Position numbers and translations under genes: made by a program. This document shows positions 1,632 through 16,888 of a stretch of DNA of 64,000 nt, in pieces (position 1 is the stretch's first letter; every line of letters begins with the position of its first letter). The stretch covers positions 1,383,585-1,447,584 of the forward strand of contig NZ_CP029256.1 of the NCBI RefSeq assembly GCF_003628755.1, written 5' to 3'. A model generated the notes under the pieces. The model had not been told where the DNA came from and ran no database searches. It saw nothing but the letters and a program-made list of their open reading frames with translations. The stretch comes from Christensenella minuta. Its GTDB lineage: Bacteria > Bacillota > Clostridia > Christensenellales > Christensenellaceae.

Positions 1632-3878
1632 ATGCGAAAGCCGAAAAAAATATTTGTCGTTTCACTTATCATTATCGTCGTTATCGCCATTGTAGCGGTC
1701 TCTTTGATGTTCTTTTACGCCAGTACCGTGCGCCGGATTCTGGATGAGGAAAACACCTCTTATTTACAGGAGGTTACCCAGCAGGAAGCGGCGATCATCG
1801 ATACGCAGGTACAGGGCGACATTTCTACCCTTGAGGCGGTCGCCACCATATTTGGAAACGATTATACGCCCAGCCTGTCTTCCGGCCGGTCGATGGATAT
1901 CCTGCAGGACCTTCAGGTTCAGAACGGTTTCAAGAGGATGGGGATCATCTATCCCGACGGAACGGCGTTGACCACGGACGGCGGAACGTATAACTTTTCC
2001 GACCGTGGATACTTCAAGAAAGCGCTGGCGGAAATTTCAAATATCTCCGATACGTTCGCCGATATTGTAGACGGAGAGAATATCAACGTATATGCGGTTC
2101 CCGTTTACAGCGGCAACGGGGCGCAGGTGGAATGCGTGCTGTTTGCCACTATTTCGACTGCTGTATTTGAAGATAAAATTTCCGTCTCGACGTTCGGCGG
2201 ACGCGGTTATTCTTATGTTGTCGACCAAGCAGGCAACAAGATTGCCGCTTCCCACCACGAGGACAGCATTACATTCGATAATATTTTTAATCTTCACGGC
2301 AGCACCGTGGAAGACCCGAACGGCGAGTTCCCCGCTATGCAGAAAAACATGGCCAAAGGCAAAAGCGGAGTTGTAAGCTACCTCAAACACGGCGAACCCT
2401 ATTATATCAGTTATGCTCCGATCGGCGTAAATTCCTGGTATGTCGTTTCCGCCGTGCCGGCGTCCGTCGCCACGGCAAAAAGCTCTTACCTAATTACCCT
2501 CACAGGCTGGATGACCGGCGCCATCGTATGCACGGTTATCATTTTTCTGGTATATATTGTTTTATCACAGAACAAATCCCGGCGAAATCTCGAGCGGATC
2601 GCCTATGAGGATGAGCTGACAGGCTCTTTGAGCTGGATGAAATTCCGTGAAGAAGTAAAAAATATCCTGCGCGAGTATCCCGGCCGTTCCTTCGCAATGA
2701 TTAATTTCGACATCAATAAATTCAAGATATTCAACCAGCTGTACGATTACCAGAACGGCAATATGCTGCTCCAGCATATCGCCGCGGTGCTGAAAAAGGA
2801 TATGCGGGAGAACGAGCTTTTTACGCACACAGGCGCGGACGACTTCGATGTTTTGATCGAATATTCTTCCGACGAGGACATCATCGGCCGCATCCTGAAG
2901 TGGAACCAGAGAATCCGGGATTACGGCTTCGCCCGAAAACGGAAATATAACCTGCTCCTTTCCTACGGAATTTACAAAATCCAGAAGGACGATACCTATG
3001 TAACGCGGATGAACGACCGCAGCAAGATTGCCAAAAACAGCGTGAAGAGCAACGCCCATACCTTTTACGCATTCTACGATAATGTGATGAACCACGAAAT
3101 GCTGCGCGAAAAAGAACTCGAAAACACGATGGACGCCGCGCTTGCAAATCATGAATTTGAAGTTTATTATCAGCCTAAATTTGATCTTAAAACGCAAAAA
3201 CCAATTGCAGCGGAGGCGCTTGTGCGCTGGAAATCTCCGCAAAAAGGCTTTATGAGTCCGGGCTCGTTCATACCCGTATTTGAACGCAACGGGTTTATCA
3301 CCAAGCTCGACCTGTATGTATTTGAGGAAGCCTGCGCGGCCCTCCACCGCTGGATCGAACGCGGATATCCGGCGATCCCGGTTTCGGTCAATTTCTCGCG
3401 CCTCAATATGTACGATGATAATTTTATCCAAAACCTGAAGGGCATCGTCCGGAAATACGGCATCTCCACCGATTTATTGGAGATCGAGCTCACCGAGAGC
3501 GCTCTCGTGTACAACGACGAACTGGTCGTCCGGCGAATGAACGAACTGCGGGAAGCCGGCTTCTGTATCTCGATCGACGATTTCGGCACCGGATATTCCT
3601 CGCTCAATCTCTTGCGCACCCTGCCGGTCAATGTAATCAAGCTCGATAAGCGTTTCTTCACGCTGAAATTTGATTCCGAACGCGAGCGCGTCATCATCAC
3701 GAGCATCGTCAGTATGGCGCAGCAGCTTGGAATCACCGTTGTTGCGGAGGGCGTCGAAACAAAGGCACAGGCCGATTTTCTCAAAGACGTTGGAAGGAGT
3801 ATTATTGTACAGGGTTTCCTGTACGCGCGGCCCATGCCGGAGGAGGACCTCCTGCGGCTGCTTACCGGCGGCAAATAA
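1632..3878 (+). CDS. Membrane-bound Cache-GGDEF-EAL protein, probable c-di-GMP phosphodiesterase
   Basis: 748 residues. Order: N-terminal membrane segment (about 10-32), extracytoplasmic dCache-type sensor (about 35-290), second membrane segment (about 293-313), GGDEF domain (about 325-485), EAL domain (about 500-745). The GGDEF signature is GADDF (401-405), so cyclase activity is unlikely; such domains often act as GTP-sensing regulators. The EAL domain keeps the expected residues: EALVRW (Glu528), ELTES, IDDFGTGYSSL, and VAEGVET, so hydrolysis of c-di-GMP to pGpG is expected. The periplasmic-side Cache domain suggests control by an external small molecule. A c-di-GMP-I riboswitch sits at 35.8 kb in the same window. 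The gene stands alone with its own promoter and terminator. Confidence 0.92.
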   Translation: MRKPKKIFVVSLIIIVVIAIVAVSLMFFYASTVRRILDEENTSYLQEVTQQEAAIIDTQVQGDISTLEAVATIFGNDYTPSLSSGRSMDILQDLQVQNGFKRMGIIYPDGTALTTDGGTYNFSDRGYFKKALAEISNISDTFADIVDGENINVYAVPVYSGNGAQVECVLFATISTAVFEDKISVSTFGGRGYSYVVDQAGNKIAASHHEDSITFDNIFNLHGSTVEDPNGEFPAMQKNMAKGKSGVVSYLKHGEPYYISYAPIGVNSWYVVSAVPASVATAKSSYLITLTGWMTGAIVCTVIIFLVYIVLSQNKSRRNLERIAYEDELTGSLSWMKFREEVKNILREYPGRSFAMINFDINKFKIFNQLYDYQNGNMLLQHIAAVLKKDMRENELFTHTGADDFDVLIEYSSDEDIIGRILKWNQRIRDYGFARKRKYNLLLSYGIYKIQKDDTYVTRMNDRSKIAKNSVKSNAHTFYAFYDNVMNHEMLREKELENTMDAALANHEFEVYYQPKFDLKTQKPIAAEALVRWKSPQKGFMSPGSFIPVFERNGFITKLDLYVFEEACAALHRWIERGYPAIPVSVNFSRLNMYDDNFIQNLKGIVRKYGISTDLLEIELTESALVYNDELVVRRMNELREAGFCISIDDFGTGYSSLNLLRTLPVNVIKLDKRFFTLKFDSERERVIITSIVSMAQQLGITVVAEGVETKAQADFLKDVGRSIIVQGFLYARPMPEEDLLRLLTGGK

Positions 3879-3891
3879 TTTTCCAGCGGAA

Positions 3892-3926
3892 CAAAGGGCA
3901 GCTCCGTTTTCCGGAGCTGCCCTTTG
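3892..3926. terminator. Bidirectional terminator between convergent genes
   Basis: A perfect 15-bp stem (3892-3906 with 3912-3926) and 5-base loop lies between the plus-strand EAL gene and the minus-strand nitroreductase; it is AT-rich at its base, so it can serve both strands. Confidence 0.85.
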
Positions 3927-3944
3927 TTGACTGTTCGTCTTTTT

Positions 3945-4466
3945 CTACTGCAAATCCTCATAAAAAACGGTCTCGCCGAGCGGCTTGCGTACTTTCCCAT
4001 GCCGTTCCGGGCTCTGCGGCTCGCCGTCCGCATAACCAACCGCAAGCAGGTTCACAATCTCAAGATGCCCGGGAATATCAAATTCCGCACGCAGTACGCC
4101 GGGATCAAACCAGCAGATCCAGAGCGTCCCCAGACCGAGCTCCGTTGCCTGCATCATCATATGGTCTGTCACAATACTCGCGTCGATATCGGTCAGTTTC
4201 TTTCCGTCATACGGGCGTTTCCAGGTTTCCCCCGTATCGCTGCATACGATGATGACACACGGCGCGCCATAAAAACGTGCGGCTTTGCCCACCTTTTCAA
4301 GCCCCTCTTTGCTCTGCACTACGATCAGGCGCTGGGGCTGTTTATTGGCCCCCGTGGGCGCAACCCGCCCCACCCCGAGTATTTGATCTAGCTTTTCACG
4401 TTCTACCGGCGCTTCCTTGTAGCTGCGCACCGAATATCTCTTTTTGGCAAGTTCCAGAAAACTCAT
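3945..4466 (-). CDS. Nitroreductase-family flavoprotein
   Basis: 173 residues. The N-terminal KKRYSVRSYKEAPVE and the RVAPTGANKQPQ stretch are the FMN-binding signatures of the NfsA/NfnB-like nitroreductase fold; TELGLGTLWICWFDP and LLAVGYAD complete it. These enzymes use FMN and NAD(P)H to reduce nitro or quinone compounds; the physiological substrate cannot be inferred. It has an AGGAGG site and lies 83 bases downstream of a flavodoxin-domain gene on the same strand, suggesting a two-gene redox unit. Confidence 0.88.
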   Translation of the reverse strand: MSFLELAKKRYSVRSYKEAPVEREKLDQILGVGRVAPTGANKQPQRLIVVQSKEGLEKVGKAARFYGAPCVIIVCSDTGETWKRPYDGKKLTDIDASIVTDHMMMQATELGLGTLWICWFDPGVLRAEFDIPGHLEIVNLLAVGYADGEPQSPERHGKVRKPLGETVFYEDLQ

Positions 4467-4549
4467 AATATGATATGCCTCCTCACCGCCTGCTGTTTTC
4501 CCGGCGGCCTTATCTTACCACGACGCTTTTCCTTCCTTTCAGGACCGTA

Positions 4550-4954
4550 TTATCCGCGCCTGGTTTCTTCCAACACCTCGTTCGCAAACACTGCGGCATG
4601 CCGTGCCGCTTCCCCGCTTTTCGCCTGCCCGCCCGTACAGTGGAATTCATGCTCCAGCACGCGCAACCCCTGCTTATCCAGCGCTTTTTTGATCTTCGCA
4701 TACGCGCCGTTCGGATTTGCCGTGGTGCTGAATACCGCCACGCATCCGACATGCTCCGGGGAAAGCGTTTTAATAAACTTTTTCAGCTTGCCTGCAATGC
4801 CTCCCGCATACAGCGCACCGCCGAGAAACAGAATGTCCGCGCGCACCGCATCCGCGCCTTCCACGCTTCCGGCCTTTACGCCGGCTTCGGCGGCAATTAC
4901 ATCTGCAACCGCCTTTGTGTTTCCCGATTTTGAAAAGTACCGTACCTCTACCAT
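4550..4954 (-). CDS. Small flavodoxin-domain protein
   Basis: 134 residues starting MVEVRYFSKSGNTKAVADVI; the FSKSGNTK loop is the flavodoxin phosphate-binding (FMN) motif, and FLGGALYAGGI and FSTTANPNGAY correspond to the isoalloxazine-contacting loops. The start chosen is the ATG eight bases after AGGAGG; a GTG nine bases upstream abuts the ribosome-binding site and is unlikely. Probably an electron carrier or menaquinone-type oxidoreductase accessory, transcribed with the nitroreductase. Confidence 0.82.
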   Translation of the reverse strand: MVEVRYFSKSGNTKAVADVIAAEAGVKAGSVEGADAVRADILFLGGALYAGGIAGKLKKFIKTLSPEHVGCVAVFSTTANPNGAYAKIKKALDKQGLRVLEHEFHCTGGQAKSGEAARHAAVFANEVLEETRRG

Positions 4955-4977
4955 ATCCGCCACCTCCTGTTTCTTCT

Positions 4978-4985
4978 ATTATACC
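4978..4985 (-). promoter_or_regulatory. Extended -10 promoter of flavodoxin-nitroreductase unit
   Basis: Minus-strand TGGTATAAT (TATAAT 4978-4983 with TG one base upstream) lies about 24 bases before the start codon; no good -35 at 17 bases, so an extended -10 type is proposed. Confidence 0.45.
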
Positions 4986-5045
4986 ATGCTTCGCGCTGTT
5001 CCAAGCTGAATTATATGTGAATTTTACTGCGTTTTCCGGCAGACG

Positions 5046-5082
5046 GCAAAAAGGCCGGCCGGAGAATCCTCCGGTCCGGCCC
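5046..5082 (-). terminator. Terminator downstream of proS
   Basis: GC-rich hairpin 5053-5064 with 5069-5081, followed on the minus strand by a TTTTT run (5048-5052). Confidence 0.85.
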
Positions 5083-5114
5083 TATCATAGCTTTCCCTGC
5101 CGCGTCAGCAGGTG

Positions 5115-6557
5115 TTAATAAGATTTCGCGAAATACATCATTTTCTTTGCGGGTTTTCCGCAATGCACGCATACATTGCCAAGGTCTTTCTGCTCAAACG
5201 GCGCGCAGCGCGTCGTTACGCCGGTTTTCTCCTTGATCGCTTCCTCGCACTCCGTCTCGCCGCACCACATTGCGCGCACGAAGCCGCGTCCTTCCTCGAT
5301 GCCCTGCATAAATTCTTCCCAATTATGCGCGTCGAAGGTACGCTCTTCCCGGTGCCTAAACGCGCTCTCGAACATGTTGTCGTGAATTTTACCGAGCAGC
5401 TGCCGCACGGTTTCTTCAATGTTTTCGAGCGGATAAGATTCCTTTTCACAGGTGTCCCTGCGCGCGAGCATGCACGCGCCCTTCTCGATATCGCGCGGAC
5501 CGATCTCCAGCCGCACCGGAACGCCTTTCAGTTCCCATTCGTTAAACTTCCAGCCCGGACTCTGGTCGCGGTCGTCAAGCTCTGTGCGGATTCCCGCGCC
5601 TTTGAGCGCGTCGAAAAGCTCCTGCGCTTTTTCAAGGACGCCCTCTTTGTGCGCCGCTACGGGAACGATCACGCACTGAATGGGCGCAACACGCGGCGGC
5701 AGCTTCAGGCCGCGCTCGTCTCCGTGCACCATAATAATCCCGCCGATCATGCGGGTGGAAACGCCCCACGACGTCTGCCACGCATATTTCAGCTGCCCGT
5801 CCCGGTCGAGGAACTGGATATCAAACCCCTTTGCAAAATTCTGCCCGAGGTTATGGGACGTACCCATCTGGAGCGCTTTGCCGTCAAGCATCATCGCTTC
5901 CACGGTATAGGTGTGATCCGCGCCCGCAAACTTCTCCTTTTCACTCTTCTGTCCGGCAATCACCGGGATCGCAAGCACATTTTCCATAAACTCCCTGTAT
6001 ACGCCGAGCATCCGCACAGTCTCTTCCTCCGCCTCTTCCCGGGTTGCATGTACGGTATGTCCTTCCTGCCACAGGAATTCCGACGTGCGCAGGAAAGGAC
6101 GCGTGCTCTTTTCCCACCGCAGAACATTGCACCACTGGTTCAGCAGCACAGGCAAATCCCGGTAGCTCTGCACCCATTTGGAATACATGGAACAAATGAT
6201 CGTCTCGGACGTGGGACGGATGCACAGCGGCTCCGCCAGCTTTTCCGTTCCGCCCTGCGTGACCCATGCCACCTCGGGGGCAAATCCTTCCACATGCTCC
6301 GCTTCTTTTTCCAGCAGGTGCTTGGGAATCAGCAGCGGAAAATAGGCATTTTTATGCCCCGTTTCCTTGAAACGCGCATCGAGCTGGTTCTGGATCAGCT
6401 CCCATATCCCATAGCCGTACTGCTTGATGACCATACAGCCCTTGACCTCGGAATAATCGATCATATCCGCCATTTTGATGACGTCCGTATACCACCGCGA
6501 AAAATCTTCGTTCTGCGGCGTAATGTGTTCCACAAATCCGCCTGTTTGCTTTGCCAT
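5115..6557 (-). CDS. proS: Prolyl-tRNA synthetase (type 3, short form)
   Basis: 480 residues; charges tRNA-Pro with proline in the cytoplasm. The size and sequence (GGFVEHITPQNEDFSRWYTD at the start, CIRPTSETIICSMYSKWVQS for class-II motif 2, LRTSEFLWQEGHTVHA) match the archaeal/eukaryote-like ProS found in many Clostridia, lacking the INS editing domain of the bacterial type. The C-terminal Cys cluster (CGETECEEAIKEK, CAPFEQ, CVHCGKPAK) is the zinc-binding domain of this type, ending with Tyr. The chosen ATG lies five bases after AAGGAGA; an in-frame TTG five codons earlier lies within that site. No T-box leader is present. Confidence 0.96.
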   Translation of the reverse strand: MAKQTGGFVEHITPQNEDFSRWYTDVIKMADMIDYSEVKGCMVIKQYGYGIWELIQNQLDARFKETGHKNAYFPLLIPKHLLEKEAEHVEGFAPEVAWVTQGGTEKLAEPLCIRPTSETIICSMYSKWVQSYRDLPVLLNQWCNVLRWEKSTRPFLRTSEFLWQEGHTVHATREEAEEETVRMLGVYREFMENVLAIPVIAGQKSEKEKFAGADHTYTVEAMMLDGKALQMGTSHNLGQNFAKGFDIQFLDRDGQLKYAWQTSWGVSTRMIGGIIMVHGDERGLKLPPRVAPIQCVIVPVAAHKEGVLEKAQELFDALKGAGIRTELDDRDQSPGWKFNEWELKGVPVRLEIGPRDIEKGACMLARRDTCEKESYPLENIEETVRQLLGKIHDNMFESAFRHREERTFDAHNWEEFMQGIEEGRGFVRAMWCGETECEEAIKEKTGVTTRCAPFEQKDLGNVCVHCGKPAKKMMYFAKSY

Positions 6558-6592
6558 AATAGTCTCCTTCAAATATGTACTGAAACTCTATT

Positions 6593-6621
6593 AGTTTATC
6601 ATCATGGCGCGTCTTTTTCAA
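6593..6621 (-). promoter_or_regulatory. proS promoter
   Basis: Minus-strand TTGAAA (6616-6621), 17-base spacer, TAAACT (6593-6598). The leader is only about 30 bases. Confidence 0.6.
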
Positions 6622-6655
6622 GCGTACGCGCGCCTGCAGGCGACCTGTGCCGCTT

Positions 6656-9600
6656 TTATTTTCCAGCCCTGCGCCGCAGCAGCAGGATCACCGCCGCGGC
6701 GGCGGCCGCGCCCGCGATGACGGCAATGACGATCCACGGCGTCATATCCTTCGTATCCCCGGTCTGCGGCCCGTCTTCCTGCTTCGCTCCGTCATCCGCA
6801 GGAACGCTGCTTTCGGCCTGCTTCCTGTTCGCAAGCACATATTCGGAGCAATGTCTGAGGGTAAACGCCGCGTATCCGGCGCTGTCCACGTTTTGCGTAC
6901 TGATATCGTCATAGCCCGTTCCGTTGAAATAATACAGGTACGTCTCTTCGCCCGCTCCAAACGGCGGCACGGCAAGCACGGATACCGTCGCTTTGCCGGG
7001 AAGCGCCCCGCTGTGCCCGAAGTTCAAAAACAACAGCTTCGTCCCCTGCGGAAATACCGCCGCGTTCTTCGCCGCCTCGCCGGGCGTATTGGAAAACGCA
7101 AGGCTCATATCCATTGCAGCCGCAATATCCGTACCGTGGAATACGAACCGTGCGACCACCTTCCCCGCATCATCCAGAACCGCAAAAATAATCGTCTTAT
7201 CCTGTCCCTTGATCTGTTCAAAGATTTCTTGGGGAACGGCCGTTCCTTCCCCCACCGGGATCAGCAGCGCCTGCTGCGGACTGAGGGCGGACAAGGCTTC
7301 CTTTATTTTCCCGAGGTCGAGACCCCCCTCCCTCTTCGGCAATGAAACGATTTCCTTGCCCTCCGCGCCCGGTATCTGCGCTTCCTGCACGATGGTGACC
7401 GTTTTGCTCACCGACCTGGTATCGTCCGCTGTACTTGTCGCCGTGACCACAACCGTTCCCGTAGCTTTTGCGGTGAACAGCACCGCCGTTTCCCCGCTGC
7501 GTCCGGCCTCCGTCCGGATATCGATGCTGTCGAGATCGCCCGCATAGCTCCACCGGATCCCGGAAAATTCTTCTTCGTTTGGGGTGACCGCCGCCGCCGC
7601 GGAGAAATCCGCCGTCTGCCCGACCTCCAGGCAGACCGTATCCACACTGTCGATGCTGACGCTTTCCACGCCCATTTGTTCGGCAATATTATTCTGCCGC
7701 AGCAGGATGCTTTCCGCACTGCTCATTGTCGCAAACGTCCAGCAGGAAGGAATCCATCCCTGGTTTTTCACCGGGGTAACCGCGCCAATATCCCGCAGGT
7801 CGAATTTTTCCGGCAACTTTGTAACCGGATCGGCCGTCCTGCCCTGCGGCAGGATGCTGGTCTTGTTCTGGCCGCTATTGGATGCGCTGTCCGCCGCTGC
7901 CGCCGGAGCGGAAAGCTCTCCCGCACTCTCGAGCTGCGCCGCGCTGAATGCCCGGCCCGCTCCCCCCTGCGAGGAATCGTCCGTTCCGCCGCCTGCGCCG
8001 TCTGTAAACGCCTTGATACAGTTGTTTGCGGAATATTTCGCGGAAATATCGGTCCAGTCCCGTCCGTCGGTGCTAGTAAAACTCTGTCCGGCCTGCGCCC
8101 GCGCCCTGTCGGAACGGCCGGTGATCGGCATCTCAACCGCCGCGACGACGTCGCTTCCGTCCCGGTTTTGCAGCCGCACGGTCACGCTGAACTCTTCTCC
8201 TGCGCCGACGGGGAGCCCTTCGCCAAGCTCCACCGTATAATATCCCTTATATTTATGGGTTCCGCTCGCCACATGGCGCGTCTCCCCGTTCACCTCGAGA
8301 TAAACGTCATAATCCTGATCCTCGTGCATGGAGTAAAACGACACAGCCTTCACGTCCTGCCTGTCCGCTGCCGTAAACACGTTTTTCGTATAAAGCACCT
8401 TGCCCCGCGAATATTGGCTGGGCTCGTAGAGGTTCGTATAGCCAAGCGGGTCGTACTGGTAAATATTATCGTAATCGTTCGCCGGATCGTCCACAAATAC
8501 GGCGGCAGCGGGATTGGCGGACAAGTCCGCGCTATAATAGGAAATATAGAAAAAACCGTTCTGCCCCTTTTCCGTTCCATAATTATTTTTGGCGATGAAC
8601 GCGCCGTCGCCCGCGGGCGTATACGGTTTTCCGTCCACGGTCACCGTGAATTGCTCCGCCGGGACTGTGTCGTCCCATCCGACCAGCGAGATCGCGTGTC
8701 CGCCCCCGGCCATATCCGCTTCCGGCTTGAAATAATACGAACCGGTCGCGTCGTAATACCCGCCTTCACCCTCTTGGTGGCGGATTCCGCAATAGATCGC
8801 CCCATAAGTATAGATCGCGTTTTTATAATGGAGCGTATCTTCCGCCGTCTTTTCCCGGTCTGGCAGCAGGATCGCCTGCCGCAGGTGGTAGCGCGCAGGA
8901 AGCTGATGGTAGGTAAACTCGCTCACATCGCCGCCAAATTCGTCCAGCATATACGGGTCGTCCTCTTCCAGCACCGGGCCGCTCCACCGCGCAAGATAGG
9001 CGAGCGCCATATAAATATCTCCGCCGGAAAGCACCCCGCCGCGTCCTTCGGCCGGCGTATAGCAATCCTCGGAGGAATCCGCGTTGAGCATTGCGTTTAG
9101 CATATTGTATTCGGAAAAGTCAAGGCCCTCTGCCGCCTGTTTGGAAACCGCCAGCGTATATTCTTTCGCGGAAAAATGCCCGCCCGGGCTTTTTACCACG
9201 GCATAATAATCCCCTTCGGCAAGCTCCGCCGTGATACGCTGGTCCCCCGCAAGCGCGCTTGCGGCGACCTCCGCGCCGCCGCTGCCGAGAAGCGTAAGCG
9301 AATAGGCCGCGCCTTCTTCGTCCGGCTGGAACAGCAAAAGTTCTATGGGCGTCGCATAGCTGTAATGGAATTTGTAATAATCCACATCCTCAGCGCTGTG
9401 GATCGTGGCCCGGATTTTGGAAGGGAAGGAAACGCTCGCCGCCGTCTCCTGCGTGTCGTTGGGCTCGTACGCGTCGCCCGCGCCTCCTGCCGTATAGGAA
9501 AAGCGCTGCACATCGCCCGGGGCAGTGCCGTCTTTATAGGTGCGGGCGTTGATGACCGTATCCCTGTCGATCATAACCGCTGCCGTAGCGCTCCCGGAAT

Positions 9601-10432
9601 CCACCGTGCCCGCCGCGCCCTGCGCTGGAACGGTTCCATCCGTGGTATACAAAATCTTCTCGTCCTCCGCCGAGGCACGCAGGGTCACCTGCGTTCCCGC
9701 CGCGACCGTGCCCGGCGCGGGATCCGCCGTTACCGTTCCGCTCTTCTGCACGGTATAGGCCGCCGAAGCAGGCTCACTGCTTTTGAGGCCCGCCTTCCGC
9801 GCGCTTGCCAAAATCCTGCTGTCCTCCGCCAGCGTCAGTTTGTCCGCCGGATTATACAGCGAAGCGCCGGGGAGCTTCGGCGACGTTCCGTCCAGCGTAT
9901 AGTAGATCTCCGCGTCCGCCGTTTCGCTCGAAAGCCCAAGCCGCGTGCCCGCCGGATATTCCCCGGCCGCGGGGCCGAAGGCAACCGGCTTGCATGCTGC
10001 CGGCATAAACCGCGCGTTACCGGACGCAACCGGATCATATTCTTCACCCGCCGTCACGTCGATAAACGCGACGCCCACGCCGTCGAACTCCTCCTGCGTA
10101 AGCACTCCGTCCGCCACCGCCTGCGCAATCGCTTCCCGAAGCGACACCGTTCCCGTATACGGGATGCGTTCCGTCATCCTTGCTTCCTTGTTTTTCAGGG
10201 TGAACATCAGCATATAATAAATCGTTTCCCCGCCCGCAGGCGCAGTATCGGCTATCCGGACCGTAGTATCCTCTTCTGCCGCGTAAAGGTCCCCCTCTTC
10301 CGGCGGATCACAATTTTCAAAAACCAGGGAAAGCTTCGCAGGACCCTCCTCCGCAAATGCGAACGACGCGCAGGAAAATACCGCGCTCACCGCTAAAACC
10401 ACTGTCAATAACAGACATACCGTTCTTTTCAT
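6656..10432 (-). CDS. Secreted, anchored papain-like (C1) protein with permuted catalytic halves
   Basis: 1258 residues. Signal peptide MKRTVCLLLTVVLAVSAVFS; start chosen at the ATG eight bases after GGAG. Domains: two chitobiase/CHB_HEX_C-like modules (about 150-228, 232-315), a PPC-like module (about 322-430), a C1-peptidase C-half (about 437-625) with GGGHAISLVGWDD (His579) and AKNNYG (Asn616), a lectin-like module (about 640-790), then at about 876-921 the C1 N-half FDLRDIGAVTPVKNQG...PSCWTFATMSSAES (Gln891, Cys897), a bacterial Ig-like (Big_2) module, a C-terminal module shared with the 1704-residue adhesin, PQTGD (about 1221), membrane helix and RRRAGK. In the family the Cys half normally precedes the His half, so this is rearranged. 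Likely a surface cysteine protease or adhesin. Confidence 0.85.
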   Translation of the reverse strand: MKRTVCLLLTVVLAVSAVFSCASFAFAEEGPAKLSLVFENCDPPEEGDLYAAEEDTTVRIADTAPAGGETIYYMLMFTLKNKEARMTERIPYTGTVSLREAIAQAVADGVLTQEEFDGVGVAFIDVTAGEEYDPVASGNARFMPAACKPVAFGPAAGEYPAGTRLGLSSETADAEIYYTLDGTSPKLPGASLYNPADKLTLAEDSRILASARKAGLKSSEPASAAYTVQKSGTVTADPAPGTVAAGTQVTLRASAEDEKILYTTDGTVPAQGAAGTVDSGSATAAVMIDRDTVINARTYKDGTAPGDVQRFSYTAGGAGDAYEPNDTQETAASVSFPSKIRATIHSAEDVDYYKFHYSYATPIELLLFQPDEEGAAYSLTLLGSGGAEVAASALAGDQRITAELAEGDYYAVVKSPGGHFSAKEYTLAVSKQAAEGLDFSEYNMLNAMLNADSSEDCYTPAEGRGGVLSGGDIYMALAYLARWSGPVLEEDDPYMLDEFGGDVSEFTYHQLPARYHLRQAILLPDREKTAEDTLHYKNAIYTYGAIYCGIRHQEGEGGYYDATGSYYFKPEADMAGGGHAISLVGWDDTVPAEQFTVTVDGKPYTPAGDGAFIAKNNYGTEKGQNGFFYISYYSADLSANPAAAVFVDDPANDYDNIYQYDPLGYTNLYEPSQYSRGKVLYTKNVFTAADRQDVKAVSFYSMHEDQDYDVYLEVNGETRHVASGTHKYKGYYTVELGEGLPVGAGEEFSVTVRLQNRDGSDVVAAVEMPITGRSDRARAQAGQSFTSTDGRDWTDISAKYSANNCIKAFTDGAGGGTDDSSQGGAGRAFSAAQLESAGELSAPAAAADSASNSGQNKTSILPQGRTADPVTKLPEKFDLRDIGAVTPVKNQGWIPSCWTFATMSSAESILLRQNNIAEQMGVESVSIDSVDTVCLEVGQTADFSAAAAVTPNEEEFSGIRWSYAGDLDSIDIRTEAGRSGETAVLFTAKATGTVVVTATSTADDTRSVSKTVTIVQEAQIPGAEGKEIVSLPKREGGLDLGKIKEALSALSPQQALLIPVGEGTAVPQEIFEQIKGQDKTIIFAVLDDAGKVVARFVFHGTDIAAAMDMSLAFSNTPGEAAKNAAVFPQGTKLLFLNFGHSGALPGKATVSVLAVPPFGAGEETYLYYFNGTGYDDISTQNVDSAGYAAFTLRHCSEYVLANRKQAESSVPADDGAKQEDGPQTGDTKDMTPWIVIAVIAGAAAAAAVILLLRRRAGK

Positions 10433-10494
10433 TTTATCTGCTCCGCCTCCATAGCCGTGCCTGTAGTGCACACCGTCAATTTTTATCCGGTATT

Positions 10495-10503
10495 ATTATA
10501 TCA
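10495..10503 (-). promoter_or_regulatory. Extended -10 promoter of the C1 surface protein
   Basis: Minus-strand TGATATAAT (TATAAT at 10495-10500) about 63 bases upstream of the start codon; -35 region is poor, which would fit an activator-dependent promoter. Confidence 0.45.
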
Positions 10504-10723
10504 TGCCTGCAGTAAGCCCGCATTACCGGATGGGTAAAATTTAAAATATTTCACGGAATCCCATCCACGCATTTTTGTGTCGCAGCGCGCCGCCGTTATG
10601 AACCGGCAAATCCTGCGGACGCCTTTCGCCGTATTTTTTCAAGCGGCCCTCAAACGCTCTTGCTTTCGGCCCGGCGGCATCAGTTCTTCACTTGGCCGGA
10701 CAGGGCGGCGGCGACTTCCCGCG

Positions 10724-10752
10724 TTGAAATTCCACTTCCGGTCCGGTATAAT
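10724..10752 (+). promoter_or_regulatory. Promoter of the LytTR response regulator
   Basis: TTGAAA (10724-10729), 17-base spacer, TATAAT (10747-10752); start codon 32 bases downstream. Confidence 0.7.
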
Positions 10753-10784
10753 ATTAACGATAAAAGATGAAGGGAGAAATGTGG

Positions 10785-11495
10785 ATGTACCGGGCCGCGA
10801 TCTGTGAAGACGATCCAACTGTATCAAAGGACCTGCATGGCCTTTGCCGCCAAATTTTATCAGAGAGTGGTATCTCTTTCGATATTACGGTTTTTTCCGG
10901 CCCTGAGGCCCTGCTCCGCATGCTGGAGAAAGACCCGGCGGCCTTCCATGTCCTGCTCCTTGATATCAAAATGGAGCCCATGAGCGGCCTCGAACTCGCA
11001 CGCCGCCTGCGGGAGGCAGGCAACCGCGTCAGTATTATTTTTGCAACAGGATATGAGGAATACCTGCGGGAAGGCTATGACGTCCAGCCCGTGCATTTCC
11101 TTTTAAAACCAGTCACAAAGGCGGCGCTGCAAAAGGCGTTCGACACCGATCTCAAGCTTAACCATATCTCCAAAACGGTTTCGCTGGAATATGGAAGCAG
11201 ACGTTTCTCTTTTGACGCAGACCATATTTTATATTTGGAGAGTCAGGACCACAATCTGCATGTCTGGCTGGAAAACGATATGCGTTCTTTTCGCATTCCG
11301 CTGCACCGAATGCAGGAGGCGCTCCCCGCAGGCCGGTTTTGCCGCTGCCATAACAGCTTTATTGTAAATCTATCATATATCCGGGAAATCACGCGCACGG
11401 AGGTTCGCCTTAATAACGGCAAAACGCTTCCGATCGGCCGCAATTATTCCCGCAGCCTGCAAAGCGCGTTCACCCGTTTTTTAAACCTCGGATAA
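10785..11495 (+). CDS. LytTR-family response regulator
   Basis: 236 residues. Receiver domain 1-125 with acidic pair EDD (8-10), phosphoacceptor Asp60 in LLLDIKMEPMSG, and Lys108 in HFLLKPV; LytTR DNA-binding domain about 135-236 (FSFDADHILYLESQDHNLHV, CRCHNSFIVNLSYIREI, LPIGRNYSRSL). This class (AgrA, LytR, VirR) binds paired 9-bp direct repeats and controls secreted or surface factors. The start is the third of three close in-frame ATGs, eight bases after AAGGGAG. The last 15 bases overlap the 3' end of the convergent histidine kinase gene. Confidence 0.93.
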   Translation: MYRAAICEDDPTVSKDLHGLCRQILSESGISFDITVFSGPEALLRMLEKDPAAFHVLLLDIKMEPMSGLELARRLREAGNRVSIIFATGYEEYLREGYDVQPVHFLLKPVTKAALQKAFDTDLKLNHISKTVSLEYGSRRFSFDADHILYLESQDHNLHVWLENDMRSFRIPLHRMQEALPAGRFCRCHNSFIVNLSYIREITRTEVRLNNGKTLPIGRNYSRSLQSAFTRFLNLG

Positions 11496-13157
11496 CTTTT
11501 CTTTTTCTGTCAGCCGCAGGGCGGTCTGCAGGCGAAACACGCCTCCGGAGCTGCTGATATCCAGAACTCCACCGTATTTTTTCGCGGTCTCTTCCATCAG
11601 GCGCATCCCATATCCGTGGGCGGCCGCATCCGCTTTGTCCGTCAGCGGCTTGCCCCTTCTGTCGCTTTTGACCTCTCCCGCGTATGGATTTTCGCAACGT
11701 ATTGCAAGATAGTTTCCCTTTTTACTGATATTCAGGCAGATATACCGCTTCGCTGGATCGATAACCGTTTCGCATCCCCGCACCGCATTATCGAGCATAT
11801 TCATCAGCAGACTGCTTAGATCGCTGTCGGCGATCCCGAGTTTTTGGGGCACGGCAGCGACCGCTTCAAACCGAATGCTTCCTTCCGCCGCCCGTGCCGC
11901 ATAGCTTTGCAAAATGGCGTTGAGTAAAAAATTCCCCGTAAACCGCGTACGCATCATACCCGCTTCCTGTCCGTTCAAATCTTTCAGGTAGTTTCCAAGC
12001 CCTTCCACGTCCCCTTCCCGGTACAGAAAGTTCATTGCCGCCAGATGATTTTTTATCTCGTGCCGCATCGCGGCGTTCTCCCGCGCACTGCGCTCGATAG
12101 CGCGGTAGCTTCTGGAAATCAATTCGTTTTTCATGGCAAGCGCCTGCCGTCCGGCTTGCTCCCGGGCCGCCGCGCGCACCGCGCAAAAGACGGAAACGGC
12201 AATGCTTACGACCAGCAGGTAGGCCGTGAGCCAATAGATCAGTCCGCTATAATACCCGGCCGCCAGGTCCTCAAATTTCATATTGATATAAAAGGCAAAA
12301 TAACTCCCGCAGGCAAGCGAAATGACGAAGGCGGCTGCGAGTACGGCTGCCGCACATAAGCTGAGTCTGCCAAAATACCGCCACATTCCGTATTTTCGGT
12401 TGAGCCATAGATAAACGACAATTAATATTGCCGGAAGAAATTCAAAAAAAGGATGATGGAAAACAGAGACCATTCCCTCTGGCAGGAAAATGATTCCCAT
12501 CCCTTCCGTCATGCGGCAAAACAGCATGGCCAGCGCGGCAGCCGCGAGCAGGAGGAGGCTGAAATCCTTTTTTCGCATAAACAGGCTAAACAGAAACAAG
12601 CCGCACGCGGCCACAAAAACGCATCCGTAAATGCCCGCGCGTATCCCATAGTAGTTGGCATATGCATACGCCTGGCCGTCCTCGATCCATACGGAGGTTA
12701 TAAAGGGGACCGGCGTCATATATTCTTCGTCCGTTCCCAAAAAGCGGTACCGCATAGCGAGCGGCTTACCTGCATAATCTTCGGGCAGATCGATCTCTAC
12801 GGAAGCCGCCGGGCTTCCCGGCGCAATCCGCTCGGAATAAAGTTCCCGCCCGTCCAGTTCAAATGCAACTTCGCCCGCTGAAGACAGAAAAACCAGCTTT
12901 CCGTCCGCGGGCCCCTGCGGAAGCCGTGCGGAAAGCACGTAGGTATCTCCGCTGTCCAGGCCTTCGACGCTTCCGTAGGCATCGACGGGGCACGGCGTTT
13001 TTACGCCGTCTTCGCCAATCCGGTACGCTTCGTTCCACACGATATAGGACTGTGTTTGCCGGAAGTAGGTAAATGTAAATAAAAAGCCTGCTATCCCGGC
13101 ACAAATCAAAACGAAGGCGAGTATCCCCATCCACAATGAGATATTTTTCCGTTTCAT
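11481..13157 (-). CDS. GHKL sensor histidine kinase (7TM-type), partner of the LytTR regulator
   Basis: 558 residues. One N-terminal membrane segment (about 8-30), an extracytoplasmic domain of roughly 160 residues, then a block of hydrophobic segments (about 190-340) as in 7TMR-DISM kinases, a coiled linker, and a catalytic part: H-box AAMRHEIKNHLAAMNF (His366), N-box LLMNMLDNAVRGCE, and G-box AHGYGMRLMEETAKKYGG, followed by DISSSGGVFRLQTAL. The HEIKNH form is typical of AgrC/LytS-like HPK10 kinases that pair with LytTR regulators. ATG chosen eight bases after AGGG. It is convergent with, not co-transcribed with, its likely partner. Confidence 0.88.
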   Translation of the reverse strand: MKRKNISLWMGILAFVLICAGIAGFLFTFTYFRQTQSYIVWNEAYRIGEDGVKTPCPVDAYGSVEGLDSGDTYVLSARLPQGPADGKLVFLSSAGEVAFELDGRELYSERIAPGSPAASVEIDLPEDYAGKPLAMRYRFLGTDEEYMTPVPFITSVWIEDGQAYAYANYYGIRAGIYGCVFVAACGLFLFSLFMRKKDFSLLLLAAAALAMLFCRMTEGMGIIFLPEGMVSVFHHPFFEFLPAILIVVYLWLNRKYGMWRYFGRLSLCAAAVLAAAFVISLACGSYFAFYINMKFEDLAAGYYSGLIYWLTAYLLVVSIAVSVFCAVRAAAREQAGRQALAMKNELISRSYRAIERSARENAAMRHEIKNHLAAMNFLYREGDVEGLGNYLKDLNGQEAGMMRTRFTGNFLLNAILQSYAARAAEGSIRFEAVAAVPQKLGIADSDLSSLLMNMLDNAVRGCETVIDPAKRYICLNISKKGNYLAIRCENPYAGEVKSDRRGKPLTDKADAAAHGYGMRLMEETAKKYGGVLDISSSGGVFRLQTALRLTEKEKLSEV

Positions 13158-13263
13158 CGCTTTTTCCCTTTGTCCGTTCCATACATTGGCAAACATTCTG
13201 CCGCCGCCCGTTTCAAGCATCTCACATTTTATTCTTTCCGTCAAATCTTTTGCCGCTCCGTGC

Positions 13264-13294
13264 CGTTTACGGCCTGGAACCGGTTGTTTACGGC
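13264..13294. promoter_or_regulatory. Candidate LytTR binding site (paired direct repeat)
   Basis: GTTTACGGC occurs at 13264-13272 and 13286-13294, a 9-bp direct repeat with a 13-bp gap, the geometry known for AgrA/AlgR-type LytTR sites. It ends eight bases before the putative -35 of the repeat-protein gene. Confidence 0.4.
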
Positions 13295-13301
13295 TTCGCT
13301 G

Positions 13302-13331
13302 TTGAATGCGCCGGAGCTTTCACAGTAAAAT
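13302..13331 (+). promoter_or_regulatory. Putative promoter of the repeat-protein gene
   Basis: TTGAAT (13302-13307), 18-base spacer, TAAAAT (13326-13331); the leader would be about 190 bases. Confidence 0.45.
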
Positions 13332-13394
13332 ACAGGTAAGAGAAATTTTTCATTTTAAACGGAATAACACATATATCCATTGGGAAAGGCAATA

Positions 13395-13492
13395 CCCGCG
13401 CAGTGCTGAGAAACAGCGGCACCGCGGATTTTGCAAGCCGCAAATGCAAAAGCCGCGGAAACTCCCGGCCGGATGAATGAAAGTCCGGCCGG
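13395..13492 (+). other. Structured leader with mutually exclusive hairpins
   Basis: Three potential hairpins precede the repeat-protein gene: (1) 13395-13427, closing CCGCG with CGCGG; (2) 13422-13435 with 13445-13458, a 14-bp stem with one mismatch; (3) 13465-13473 with 13484-13492, perfect CCGGCCGGA/TCCGGCCGG. Hairpins 1 and 2 share 13422-13427, so they exclude each other. It does not match riboswitch classes I can recall. Confidence 0.4.
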
Positions 13493-13528
13493 TCTCTGAA
13501 ACACAAAAAAACAGCAGGAGGAAAAAAC

Positions 13529-14914
13529 ATGAAAAAAAAGATCGTATGCGTTTTGTTATCGTTTGTGCTGGTATTGGCGCTTATACCGACAGCATTTGCG
13601 GTCGCGGATGTTTGTACGATTACCGTGACGGTAAAGGACGCAGATGAGACGGAGACCTTGATTGCGGGAGCCGAGGTAAACCTGGGCAATTTCAGCGAAA
13701 CGACCGCTCCTACCGGATCATGCACGCTCGTCGTCCCACAGGGAACAAGCGGGAACCTAACCGTATATAAAGACGGATGGGTGATTTTTTCCACGGAAAT
13801 CACGGCGCAGGACACAGCGGGCGAAATCCTCTCCCGCGAGGTTTTCCTTACCAAGAACATCTGGACGCTTACCGGCACCGTAACGAACGAAGACGGCGTC
13901 CCTGTTCCCGACGCAGAGGTGAGCTGGGGCAGATATGAAACAACGTCCGGCCCTGACGGTAAATATGCCCTGGACGACCTTCCGGCGGGGACGGCTAACT
14001 TCACGGTATATGCGGAAGGCTATGTCGTCTATTCCGAGGCAAATATGGAAGTGCGGCACGGCATGCCGGAGAAAAACGTCGCGCTGAACTTCCACACGCT
14101 TTCCGGGGAAATCACGGATGAAGACGGCAACCCCGTTTCCGGAGCGGAGGTAAATTGGGGCAACTATGCCGCGTTCACGGATGATAACGGCTATTACAGC
14201 ATGAAAGTCCTTGCGGGAACCGCAAACCTTATCGCATATAAGGAAGGCTACGTTATCTATTCTTATCCTGCCTTCACCGTAAGCGGCGCTGCGGCGGAAG
14301 AGGATATTGTCCTTTCGCTCCCGCCCCACACGCTGGAAGGAACCATAACAGACGCAGCCGGCAACCCTGTTCCCGGCGCTGAGGTGAATTGGGGCAACTA
14401 TGCCGCGTTTACGGACGATAACGGCCATTACAGCATGCAGGTTCCGGCGGGGACGAACAGTCTTACCGTATATGCGGACGGATTCCTGATTTTTGCGGAA
14501 CCCGGCTTCGCCGTAGCGAACGGCACAATTGAGAAAAACATCGTCCTGGAAGCCAACCTTTGTACGCTTGCGGGGACGGTAACGGACGCAAACGGCAAAC
14601 CTGTTTCCGGAGCGGAAGTGAACTGGGGCAACTATGCCGCGTTCACGGACGATAACGGCTATTACAGCATGGAGGTCACAGGCGGGATCGCAAACCTGAC
14701 GGTATGCATAGACGGCTCCGCCGTATACAGCGAGAAAGATTTTGCCGTAGGAAACGGCATTCTGAACGAAAAGAATATCGTCCTCAACACGGCGGCAAAC
14801 CCTGCCGCGCCCAAGACCGGAGACGGCACGACAGCGCTTCCCTATGTTTTCCTCGCGGGAGCAAGCCTTGCTGTCCTGTACCTTACGCTGAGAAAACGTC
14901 ATGCCTATAAATAA
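13529..14914 (+). CDS. Secreted protein built of five carboxypeptidase-regulatory-like repeats
   Basis: 461 residues. Signal peptide MKKKIVCVLLSFVLVLALIP ending at AFA; strong AGGAGG site. Five repeats of about 78 residues follow, each of form TLxGTVTDxxGxPVxGAEVN-WG-Y with (D)DNGYYSM and GTANLTVYxEGYVIYS, the pattern of carboxypeptidase regulatory-like (transthyretin-like) beta-sandwich domains. The C-terminus has PKTGD (428-432), a hydrophobic helix and KRHAYK, a likely cell-wall or membrane anchoring tail. Repeats 3-5 carry nearly identical NWGNYAAFTDDNG blocks. Role probably structural or adhesive at the cell surface; it stands next to the LytTR two-component genes. Confidence 0.85.
   Translation: MKKKIVCVLLSFVLVLALIPTAFAVADVCTITVTVKDADETETLIAGAEVNLGNFSETTAPTGSCTLVVPQGTSGNLTVYKDGWVIFSTEITAQDTAGEILSREVFLTKNIWTLTGTVTNEDGVPVPDAEVSWGRYETTSGPDGKYALDDLPAGTANFTVYAEGYVVYSEANMEVRHGMPEKNVALNFHTLSGEITDEDGNPVSGAEVNWGNYAAFTDDNGYYSMKVLAGTANLIAYKEGYVIYSYPAFTVSGAAAEEDIVLSLPPHTLEGTITDAAGNPVPGAEVNWGNYAAFTDDNGHYSMQVPAGTNSLTVYADGFLIFAEPGFAVANGTIEKNIVLEANLCTLAGTVTDANGKPVSGAEVNWGNYAAFTDDNGYYSMEVTGGIANLTVCIDGSAVYSEKDFAVGNGILNEKNIVLNTAANPAAPKTGDGTTALPYVFLAGASLAVLYLTLRKRHAYK
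14141..14671 (+). repeat. Near-identical 63-bp repeat blocks in the repeat-protein gene
   Basis: Blocks at 14141-14203, 14375-14437 and 14609-14671 are almost identical in DNA and spaced exactly 234 bases (78 codons). The conservation is stronger than in the rest of each repeat, pointing to recent duplication or gene conversion. Confidence 0.8.
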
Positions 14915-14962
14915 TTCGCTTGCCTCCGGCAAGGATTGCAACGCGAATGCAGCGTTAGGCTA

Positions 14963-14998
14963 AACAAAAAGGAGCGAAACAATTCGCTCCTTTTTGTT
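14963..14998. terminator. Bidirectional terminator after the repeat-protein gene
   Basis: Perfect 16-bp stem (14963-14978 with 14983-14998), ACAA loop, with A5/T5 flanks inside the stem. Confidence 0.88.
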
Positions 14999-15106
14999 CC
15001 GGCGAAAAAAGCGGGCAAAGGCTGCCCGGCTGCACTTCCCGCAGCCCGACCGGTTCCGGAAAAAAGACCGCGCCGCTCGGCACAGCCATTTTAATTTATT
15101 TCTTCG

Positions 15107-15877
15107 TTACGGCATCTCCGGCAAAATGTAGGCGGAGCCATCTTCCGCCCGCAACATACAAATCTTCGTACCGTATACCTCCTCAAGGATATCTTTTTTC
15201 AGGATATCCCCCGTAGGGCCATATTCGATCACGCGCCCCTTTTTCATCAGTACGACCTGGTCGCAGTAATGACTCGCAAGGTTTAAATCGTGCAGCACGC
15301 ATACGCACAGCATCCCCCTGCTGCGTACAAGCGAGCGCACCAGCGAAAGGATGCCCACCTGGTGCTTGATATCAAGGCTTGCGACCGGCTCGTCCAGAAG
15401 CAGGATGCTTGACTCCTGGCACAGCGCGCGCGCAATAATCATGCGCTGCCATTCCCCGCCTGAAAGCCCTGTGACAGACCTGTTCTCAAGGTGGCCGATG
15501 CCCGTTTTCCGGATACATTCGCGCGCCAATTCCACATCTTCCGGCGTGTCGCTTTCAAAGGTTTTCTTGTGCGGGTTGCGCCCCATCAGTACAGTCTCAA
15601 GCACGGTAAAATCATATTCCAGAGCGTAATTCTGCGGTACGAGCGCCATTTTTTTGGCAAGCGCTTTCGCGCCCAGCGCGCCTACGTCCCCGCCATCCAG
15701 CCTGACAGTGCCCTGCCGGGGCCTCAAATAGCCTGAGATCACGCGCAGCAGGGTCGTCTTGCCTGCGCCGTTCGGCCCCAGCACGCCCACCATACCGCCG
15801 CTAAGCGTCAGGGAAATATTATGCAGGATGGGCGTATCGTCTATTGTAAGGCATACGTCTTTGATTTCGATACTCAT
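15107..15877 (-). CDS. btuD: Cobalamin/iron-chelate ABC transporter ATPase
   Basis: 256 residues, FecE/BtuD-type ATPase. Walker A GPNGAGKTTLL, signature LSGGEWQRMIIARAL, Walker B SILLLDEPVASLD, and switch His in CVLHDLNLAS are all intact. It energises the permease encoded three bases upstream. Because the operon lies behind a cobalamin riboswitch, the cargo is inferred to be vitamin B12 or a corrinoid precursor rather than a siderophore; sequence alone would not separate the two. Confidence 0.88.
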   Translation of the reverse strand: MSIEIKDVCLTIDDTPILHNISLTLSGGMVGVLGPNGAGKTTLLRVISGYLRPRQGTVRLDGGDVGALGAKALAKKMALVPQNYALEYDFTVLETVLMGRNPHKKTFESDTPEDVELARECIRKTGIGHLENRSVTGLSGGEWQRMIIARALCQESSILLLDEPVASLDIKHQVGILSLVRSLVRSRGMLCVCVLHDLNLASHYCDQVVLMKKGRVIEYGPTGDILKKDILEEVYGTKICMLRAEDGSAYILPEMP

Positions 15878-15880
15878 AGC

Positions 15881-16888
15881 CTATACCCCCTTCCGTCCGC
15901 GCCGCAGTAAAAAAATAAAGAACGGCACGCCCAGTATTGACGTCACGATGCCCACCGGCATCTCCTGTCCGGAAAGTATGACGCGCGCAATGATATCGCA
16001 CACGAGTAAATAAGCGCCTCCGCCCACAAAGCATAAGGGCATCAGCTTTTTGTTATCCGGCCCTGCGGCCATGCGCAAAAGGTGCGGCACCATCAACCCC
16101 ACGAATCCGATAATTCCGCTGACCGAAACCGCCACAGCGGACAGCAGCGAGGTCAGTATAAGCATATTCCTGCGCGTCTTATGCGTATCGACGCCCAAGC
16201 TGCGCGACACCTCGTCCCCGTTGAGCATGATATTTAAGGGCTTTGCATAGAGCATCAGCAATGCCGAGCAAACGAGGACCGCCGGCAGCGCAATAGCTAC
16301 CTTTTCCCACGACATACTTGCGAGGCTGCCCATATTCCACATGACAACATTTTCCATCTTATCGCGGTTTAAAAGCATAATCAGGTAGATAATGGCCGAG
16401 AACATAGCGCTCATGGAAAAGCCGGACAGCAGCAGCGAAAAGGTCGATACCTTGCCGCGTATGCGCGAAATGTTGTACACCACAAGCACGGCAATCAGCG
16501 CGCCCAAAAAGCTGAATACAGCGACCGTTCCCGCGCCGAACACCGTGGCCGTCGTAAAAAACGTCATGGCAACCGTCGCTCCCAGCGCCGCGCCCGAGGA
16601 AACGCCCAGCACAAATGAATCCGCCATCGGGTTTTTGAACACCCCCTGCAGACAGCAGCCTGAAACAGCAAGTGCCGCTCCCACCAAAAAGGCGCCGATT
16701 GCACGGGGGAGGCGGATATTCAAAAAGATATTATACATTGCCTGCGAAGCCGTGCCGTCGAGCACACGCGCAAATTCCGCAAACGAAAAACCCGAACTCC
16801 CCACAAAAAAGGCGCACACAAAGGCGGCAATGCCCCCTAAAATGAGCGCCAGTAAGATCATCTGGAATTTTGCAGGTTTTTTGGCCAT
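15881..16888 (-). CDS. btuC: FecCD/BtuC-type ABC permease
   Basis: 335 residues with about ten hydrophobic segments. FecCD-family signatures are present: LPRAIGAFLVGAALAVSGCCLQGVFKNPMADSFVLGVSSGAALGA, GFVGLMVPHLLRMA and GEMPVGIVTSILGVPFFIFLL-like C-terminal stretch. It forms the membrane channel for the substrate delivered by the lipoprotein encoded upstream (11-base gap) and pairs with the ATPase downstream. Confidence 0.9.
   Translation of the reverse strand: MAKKPAKFQMILLALILGGIAAFVCAFFVGSSGFSFAEFARVLDGTASQAMYNIFLNIRLPRAIGAFLVGAALAVSGCCLQGVFKNPMADSFVLGVSSGAALGATVAMTFFTTATVFGAGTVAVFSFLGALIAVLVVYNISRIRGKVSTFSLLLSGFSMSAMFSAIIYLIMLLNRDKMENVVMWNMGSLASMSWEKVAIALPAVLVCSALLMLYAKPLNIMLNGDEVSRSLGVDTHKTRRNMLILTSLLSAVAVSVSGIIGFVGLMVPHLLRMAAGPDNKKLMPLCFVGGGAYLLVCDIIARVILSGQEMPVGIVTSILGVPFFIFLLRRGRKGV

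Follow-up and report, generated by a model that had tools for sequence, protein, structure and literature searches.

The window analysed here, a stretch of 64,000 nucleotides from Christensenella minuta (contig NZ_CP029256.1, positions 1,383,585 to 1,447,584), encodes a protein of 1258 residues, P0001, that is very probably a cell-surface cysteine peptidase of the lectin-like C1A (Cwp84) type with a circularly permuted catalytic domain. The half that carries His579 and Asn616 comes first and is followed by the Lectin_like domain, a linker and finally the segment with Cys897, which lies 281 residues past Asn616 and 318 past His579. This swapped order had been noticed in a first-pass annotation made from the letters and their reading frames, which put the Cys about 280 residues further on, beyond a lectin-like module; the measured distance and the position of the module (residues 657-810) bear it out. 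The frame was also rightly described as continuous: it is unbroken from its ATG, with a further in-frame GTG upstream at 10471. The parts of the gene concerned with catalysis are the following.

6656..10432, minus strand: whole coding sequence of P0001, a predicted surface protein of 1258 residues (open frame)
8468..9121, minus strand: first catalytic piece, residues 438-655, from DFSEYN through His and Asn (Pfam)
8696..8698, minus strand: codon of His579, predicted catalytic (alignment and motif scan)
8585..8587, minus strand: codon of Asn616, papain-type third residue (alignment and motif scan)
8003..8464, minus strand: Lectin_like domain (PF18560), residues 657-810 (Pfam, E 2.7e-36)
7817..8002, minus strand: linker between the old C-terminus and the old N-terminus, residues 811-872 (62 residues), weakly constrained
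7682..7816, minus strand: second catalytic piece with the Cys helix, residues 873-917, Peptidase_C1 positions 1-45 (Pfam)
7760..7762, minus strand: codon of Gln891, oxyanion-hole position (alignment and motif scan)
7742..7744, minus strand: codon of Cys897, predicted catalytic (alignment and motif scan)

The whole protein matches Peptidase_C1 (PF00112) of Pfam with 53 bits, residues 456-632 of the first catalytic piece corresponding to profile positions 57-204. This piece opens with DFSEYNMLN and contains His579 within GGHAISLVGWDD and Asn616 within AKNNYG, and the second piece reads LPEKFDLRD..VKNQGWIPSCWTFA, with Cys897 inside. When the two halves were compared separately with the profile, a check the first-pass annotation had proposed, each exceeded the cut-off of 20.7 bits by itself and the profile ranges were complementary: residues 1-812 matched positions 57-204 (24.4 bits), and the C-terminal 446 residues matched positions 1-45 at residues 873-917 (30.6 bits). 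In four proteins the pieces tile the family with an overlap of at most four positions; the ranges in relatives are 46-205 and 1-49 (L036), 45-205 and 1-43 (L181), and 65-213 and 1-44 (L037). A phmmer search against the PDB aligned P0001 with Cwp84 (4ci7; E 1.5e-24 for the whole sequence) in reversed order, such that residues 468-810 correspond to residues 133-467 of the chain and residues 858-910 to residues 49-102. The latter match is weak by itself (E 0.073); taken alone, however, the Cys segment hits the N-terminal end of plant papains, for example ervatamin C (residues 1-64, E 5.6e-8).

The Cys motif might have belonged to a second, complete C1 domain, a possibility raised at the outset as one that would undo the permutation. 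No such domain was found. A motif scan revealed a single Q..CW site and a single H..VGW site in P0001, and in a scan of profile order neither P0001 nor its permuted relatives had a Cys segment before the core; these results together rule out that the motif is supplied by another full domain. P0001 thus matches the C1 profile and has the active-site residues of the family but departs from the canonical Cys-His-Asn order. The permuted proteins keep the C1 motifs KNQG..CW, GH..VGW and KN.[WY]G, and since Cys is the last of the residues in all 16 of them, P0001 is placed as a permuted variant rather than an ordinary C1 member. A Pfam scan up to E 1 yielded no match in P0001 to the NlpC/P60, LRAT or PPPDE families.

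The permuted order, defined by a single frame with the His, Asn and Cys pieces, was found in 16 proteins from 15 genomes that belong to the Christensenellaceae, Claveliimonas and other Lachnospiraceae, unplaced Bacillota and one genus (g259) of family f85. One of the 16 (L007/L035) is without the first part of the core in that frame, and a would-be seventeenth protein (G063), split over two contig ends, was not counted. Five of the six genomes of the window's genus carry the gene, as does one (G012) of the 12 other genomes of its family, several of which are incomplete. The named carriers are Christensenella hongkongensis, C. intestinihominis, Christensenella sp. Marseille-P2438 and Christensenellaceae bacterium OttesenSCG-928-K19; whole-protein identities to P0001 amount to 87, 83, 70, 38 and 39%, the final value coming from a partial protein. 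A scan of genome contigs, covering the best 80 of 105 relatives, brought in Claveliimonas bilis (L036), an uncultured Eubacteriales (L037), an uncultured Lachnospiraceae (L038), a Lachnospiraceae metagenome-assembled genome (L041) and an uncultured Firmicutes (L039) with two neighbouring permuted C1-lectin genes (3327-7304 and 7252-11364), whose listed open reading frames (ORFs) overlap slightly although those from the true starts may not.

Canonical, Cys-first order predominates among the relatives. A second scan of profile order in 177 core-bearing frames, a set that includes redundancy between loci, counted 129 with the order Cys-core-lectin, 30 with core-lectin-Cys, 17 with a partial or split core and one tandem arrangement (L090); in none of the 177 did Cys segments flank a single core on both sides. 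Among the sampled Clostridia, 60 of 391 genomes matched at E <= 1e-20. In family f85, to which G443 belongs, 23 of 40 genomes matched at E <= 1e-40, three of them with matches that span the Cys segment, all in one genus of which five genomes were searched. One of 397 genomes of family f58 (G676) had a match, which was spanning, at E <= 1e-90, a cut-off set to exclude canonical matches, at which diverged or truncated permuted proteins could be missed. Canonical relatives coexist with the permuted gene in three genomes (G061, G443 and G469). At locus L181 a canonical gene (2190-4859) and a permuted one (12311-16750) lie about 7.5 kb apart, with a gene that by eye resembles subtilisin among those between them, and at L103 two frames of 870 and 807 residues contain core and lectin-like parts, the Cys segment being undetected by the profile used. 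A viral or mobile origin was considered and rejected: no relative of P0001 was found in a scan of viral contigs, the matches to plasmids (three) and phages (five) covered only the core and lectin positions of the query, and the three of these eight records that were examined (L190, L191 and L192) have the canonical order.

That the order arose by faulty assembly, as the first-pass annotation had allowed, or by a frameshift is practically ruled out. The same order occurs in independently assembled genomes, in six of which (G000, G001, G004, G061, G443 and G469) the gene lies inside contigs of more than 2 Mb, and both catalytic pieces are under purifying selection; occurrence in 15 genomes likewise excludes chance. 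Recombining DNA repeats at the junctions were also sought, and only short matches of up to 35 nucleotides, no long repeat, were seen.

The selection on the two pieces is evident at several levels. One alignment of 12 rows shows no variation at Gln891, Cys897, His579 and Asn616, and all 15 permuted proteins tested, a set without L189, have these four residues. In canonical proteins Gln is present in 127 of 127, Cys in 126, and His and Asn in 124, with three gaps each. In each of five relatives the Cys segment is the most conserved stretch, with identities to P0001 of 44/44, 43/44, 41/44, 28/43 and 28/43, as compared with 50/62, 49/62, 35/61, 7/50 and 6/48 in the adjoining linker. The ratio of nonsynonymous to synonymous differences (pN/pS), obtained by simple counting for four of the six species pairs among four Christensenella species, was 0.00-0.13 in the Cys segment, 0.06-0.11 in the N-terminal piece, 0.09-0.18 in the lectin-like domain, 0.17-0.30 in the immunoglobulin-like (Ig-like) region, 0.27-0.43 in the linker and 0.27-0.42 in the CHB/Fn3 repeats, so that constraint is strongest in the two catalytic pieces. 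Mean identity between permuted and canonical proteins is close to that among canonical ones, both in the Cys segment (45.7 versus 47.2%) and in the core (35.4 versus 38.0%). To judge from its sequence, the permuted Cys segment is not a decaying relic, and the permuted protein is probably an active enzyme.

These data bear on the alternative that P0001 is a catalytically dead surface adhesin or binding protein put together from shuffled C1 and lectin-like pieces. Such a protein would fit the setting of the pieces in a large chain of many domains, the relatives containing Big_2, CHB_HEX, LRR and lectin-like modules. Arguing against it are the retention of all four active-site residues and the rank of the Cys segment among the most constrained parts; moreover, the frame of L041 (6300-6356) stops directly after the Cys helix, so that downstream sequence cannot account for the retention of the segment there. 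A dead adhesin is accordingly regarded as improbable.

In canonical relatives the helix and the core are connected as ..ESYLL-(short loop)-DFSENNM... In the permuted proteins the N-terminal piece starts at DFSE and the C-terminal piece ends past ..ESILL, which places the new chain ends in the loop after the Cys helix; the break falls in this loop in all members with a complete core that were aligned or read. Natural circular permutation, one of the options of the first-pass annotation, is supported over loose domain shuffling, another of them, because the pieces tile the C1 family, share the loop in which they are broken, are the most constrained parts of the protein and keep the four residues. 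Shuffling fits these observations less well.

It is proposed that new ends arose by opening of the loop behind the Cys helix and that the old ends were joined, the C-terminus of the lectin-like domain to the N-terminus of the propeptide or mature enzyme, by a tandem duplication followed by trimming at both ends. Within one molecule the N-terminal piece (DFSE..His..Asn plus the lectin-like domain) would most likely close on the C-terminal one (LPxxFDLR..KNQG..CW helix). The two would then restore the usual Gln-Cys-His-Asn site, next to whose cleft the lectin-like domain would lie as it does in Cwp84. That the papain-like fold tolerates permutation is indicated by BcPPNE of Bacillus cereus, described as a permuted enzyme of solved structure (PMC3142127). 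Alternatively, the Cys segment might dock into the His/Asn piece of a neighbouring molecule, and activity would then need oligomers or dense display. With lengths of 50-85 residues in the 14 proteins measured, the linkers could serve either arrangement, and display on the wall is conceivable in view of a sub-threshold sorting-like tail and the sortases of the genome. Closure within one molecule is simpler and is the arrangement reported for BcPPNE (PMC3142127), and a domain-swapped assembly is considered quite unlikely.

Tandem duplication with trimming is described as a textbook route to natural circular permutants (PMC3320104). A frame of 2059 residues from Methanobrevibacter (L090) contains two full canonical C1-lectin modules in tandem; it shows that the kind of intermediate needed for permutation by duplication can exist, though outside the permuted lineage. 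Many canonical relatives have a propeptide with the motif LNPEF..Y..G.IPSPV. Linkers were compared with a propeptide profile, the controls being shuffled linkers, alignments with shuffled columns and the sequence that follows the lectin domain in canonical proteins, and the permuted proteins were divided into group A (Christensenellaceae, Claveliimonas and f85) and group B (L037-L039, L041 and L183). By itself, the linker of L037 matched the profile (E 2.5e-7 with the search size set to 1000), and the five group B linkers, when aligned, matched it with an hhalign probability of 87%, as compared with at most 1.3% in 40 column-shuffled controls.

Several observations weigh against the permutation as proposed here or against parts of it. 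The permuted form is rare: the matches reach the Cys segment in only three of the 391 sampled clostridial genomes (G000, G001 and G443), and one genome of the window's own genus (G002) gave no catalytic match. The pN/pS count of the Cys segment covers only 44 codons, and the CHB/Fn3 repeats exceed the linker in two of the four pairs, so that the linker is not uniquely relaxed. The propeptide profile is biased, being built from 31 of 78 canonical sequences chosen by a pattern of the NP-x-[FY] type. The other 13 of the 14 linkers scored no higher than the best shuffled linker, the aligned group A linkers did not match, and the linker of P0001 obtained 0.0 bits, below its own shuffled copies; a propeptide relic in the Christensenella linkers was thus looked for by profile with controls and not found. 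Finally, groups A and B stand apart, on weak branches, in a tree of 152 rows, which leaves a single origin less than firm.

Two independent permutations at the same breakpoint would explain this separation, for which the 152-row tree requires two changes, and also the match of the propeptide profile to the linkers of group B and not of group A. Arguing for one event, the starred branches of the same tree require at most one change, and a tree of 98 rows, from which 54 canonical or undetermined rows were dropped (long branches and near-duplicates), unites the 16 permuted rows in one clade with a support of 92, although this branch is unstarred. The 16 rows include the partial L183, and L189 is in neither tree. 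A single origin is favoured, if not firmly shown, and two origins seem rather doubtful.

The remaining parts of P0001 are listed here.

10352..10432, minus strand: probable signal peptide, residues 1-27, judged by eye from MKRTVCLLLTVVLAVSAVFSCASFAFA
9494..9973, minus strand: CHB_HEX_C_1 / Fn3_assoc repeats, residues 154-313 (Pfam)
9122..9442, minus strand: PPC-like beta domain, residues 331-437, from the PPC matches of relatives
7373..7681, minus strand: Ig-like region past the Cys segment, residues 918-1020, named by eye
6668..6757, minus strand: C-terminal hydrophobic and basic tail, a possible sorting signal, residues 1226-1255 (NCBIfam, sub-threshold)

The PPC-like stretch of P0001 has no Pfam match; the aligned region of L006 scores 25.2 bits as PPC against a cut-off of 25.9, and PPC exceeds the cut-off in L036 and L181. 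The Ig-like region likewise has no Pfam match, and Big_2 lies downstream of the Cys segment in L036, L037 and L181. In other members the permuted module is joined to different N-terminal parts: a region that resembles a 5'-nucleotidase by eye in L189, and one with a metallopeptidase-like HELQHLINW stretch in L036. The tail of P0001 matches GVDTG_CTERM of NCBIfam with 18.2 bits, below the cut-off of 29, and four sortase matches were obtained in the window genome. Together with the N-terminal sequence, these matches suggest secretion of the enzyme and, probably, its attachment to the wall. The tail region (window 6668-6880, about residues 1185-1255) recurs with 33-44% identity in several other large ORFs of the genus, as would be expected of a shared sorting signal. 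Adjoining P0001 in the window (10767-13244) are a response regulator, which has matches of the AgrA/LytR type, and a sensor kinase that matches AgrC weakly; a regulatory link between this pair and P0001 is possible.

Among known proteins P0001 most resembles Cwp84 (4ci7 and 4d59), with which it shares the catalytic pieces, the Lectin_like domain directly after the core, and the Gln, Cys and His residues. As described for Cwp84, its order is propeptide, Cys segment, His core and lectin-like domain, whereas in P0001 the Cys segment is last; furthermore, Asn616 corresponds to a Ser in the aligned Cwp84, and P0001 has no Pfam match to the wall-binding CWBD repeat but instead an Ig-like region and the sorting-like tail. 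Papain-like folds with a C-terminal Cys helix are also described for the permuted NlpC/P60 proteins (LRAT, YaeF/YiiX and 3KW0 of B. cereus) and for PPPDE (PMC3142127, PMC10318531). A 2023 classification of papain-like proteins assigns these to clusters II and VI, unlike P0001, which matches Peptidase_C1 itself; cluster I, which includes papain, the cathepsins and C1, is characterized there by canonical structures that keep all core elements, and other permutations are attributed to cluster V (PMC10318531). To the latter belongs LupA, reported as a permuted relative of the deubiquitinase LotA and hence a permuted member beside canonical kin in one cluster (PMC10318531); it is set beside P0001 by this description, not by sequence. 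Swaposin, presented as the classic natural permutant formed by duplication and trimming, differs in its fold and is a non-catalytic domain (PMC3320104). The term 'permut' is absent from the main text of a 2023 study of papain-family origins (PMC10380794), and no description of a permuted C1 peptidase was found in searches of openly licensed literature, including searches on Cwp84 and Christensenella, subscription papers being outside this scope. Permuted papain folds are already known from NlpC/P60, PPPDE and deubiquitinases.

One may speculate further that in a clostridial lineage of surface proteases the permutation serves to control the enzyme. The nucleophile helix, preceded in some members by a propeptide-like stretch, would be tethered toward the wall anchor, and assembly of the active site would have to await secretion and anchoring and might take place between neighbouring molecules. 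On present evidence this is a long shot.

A conserved C1 permutant that occurs beside canonical kin in some of the same genomes provides a clean natural experiment, in which the same family and the same active site are combined with another chain order. Through it one can test how a zymogen propeptide, the order of folding and a lectin-like partner tolerate the re-threading of the chain. Proteases permuted in this manner would be overlooked by filters that rely on the order of motifs.

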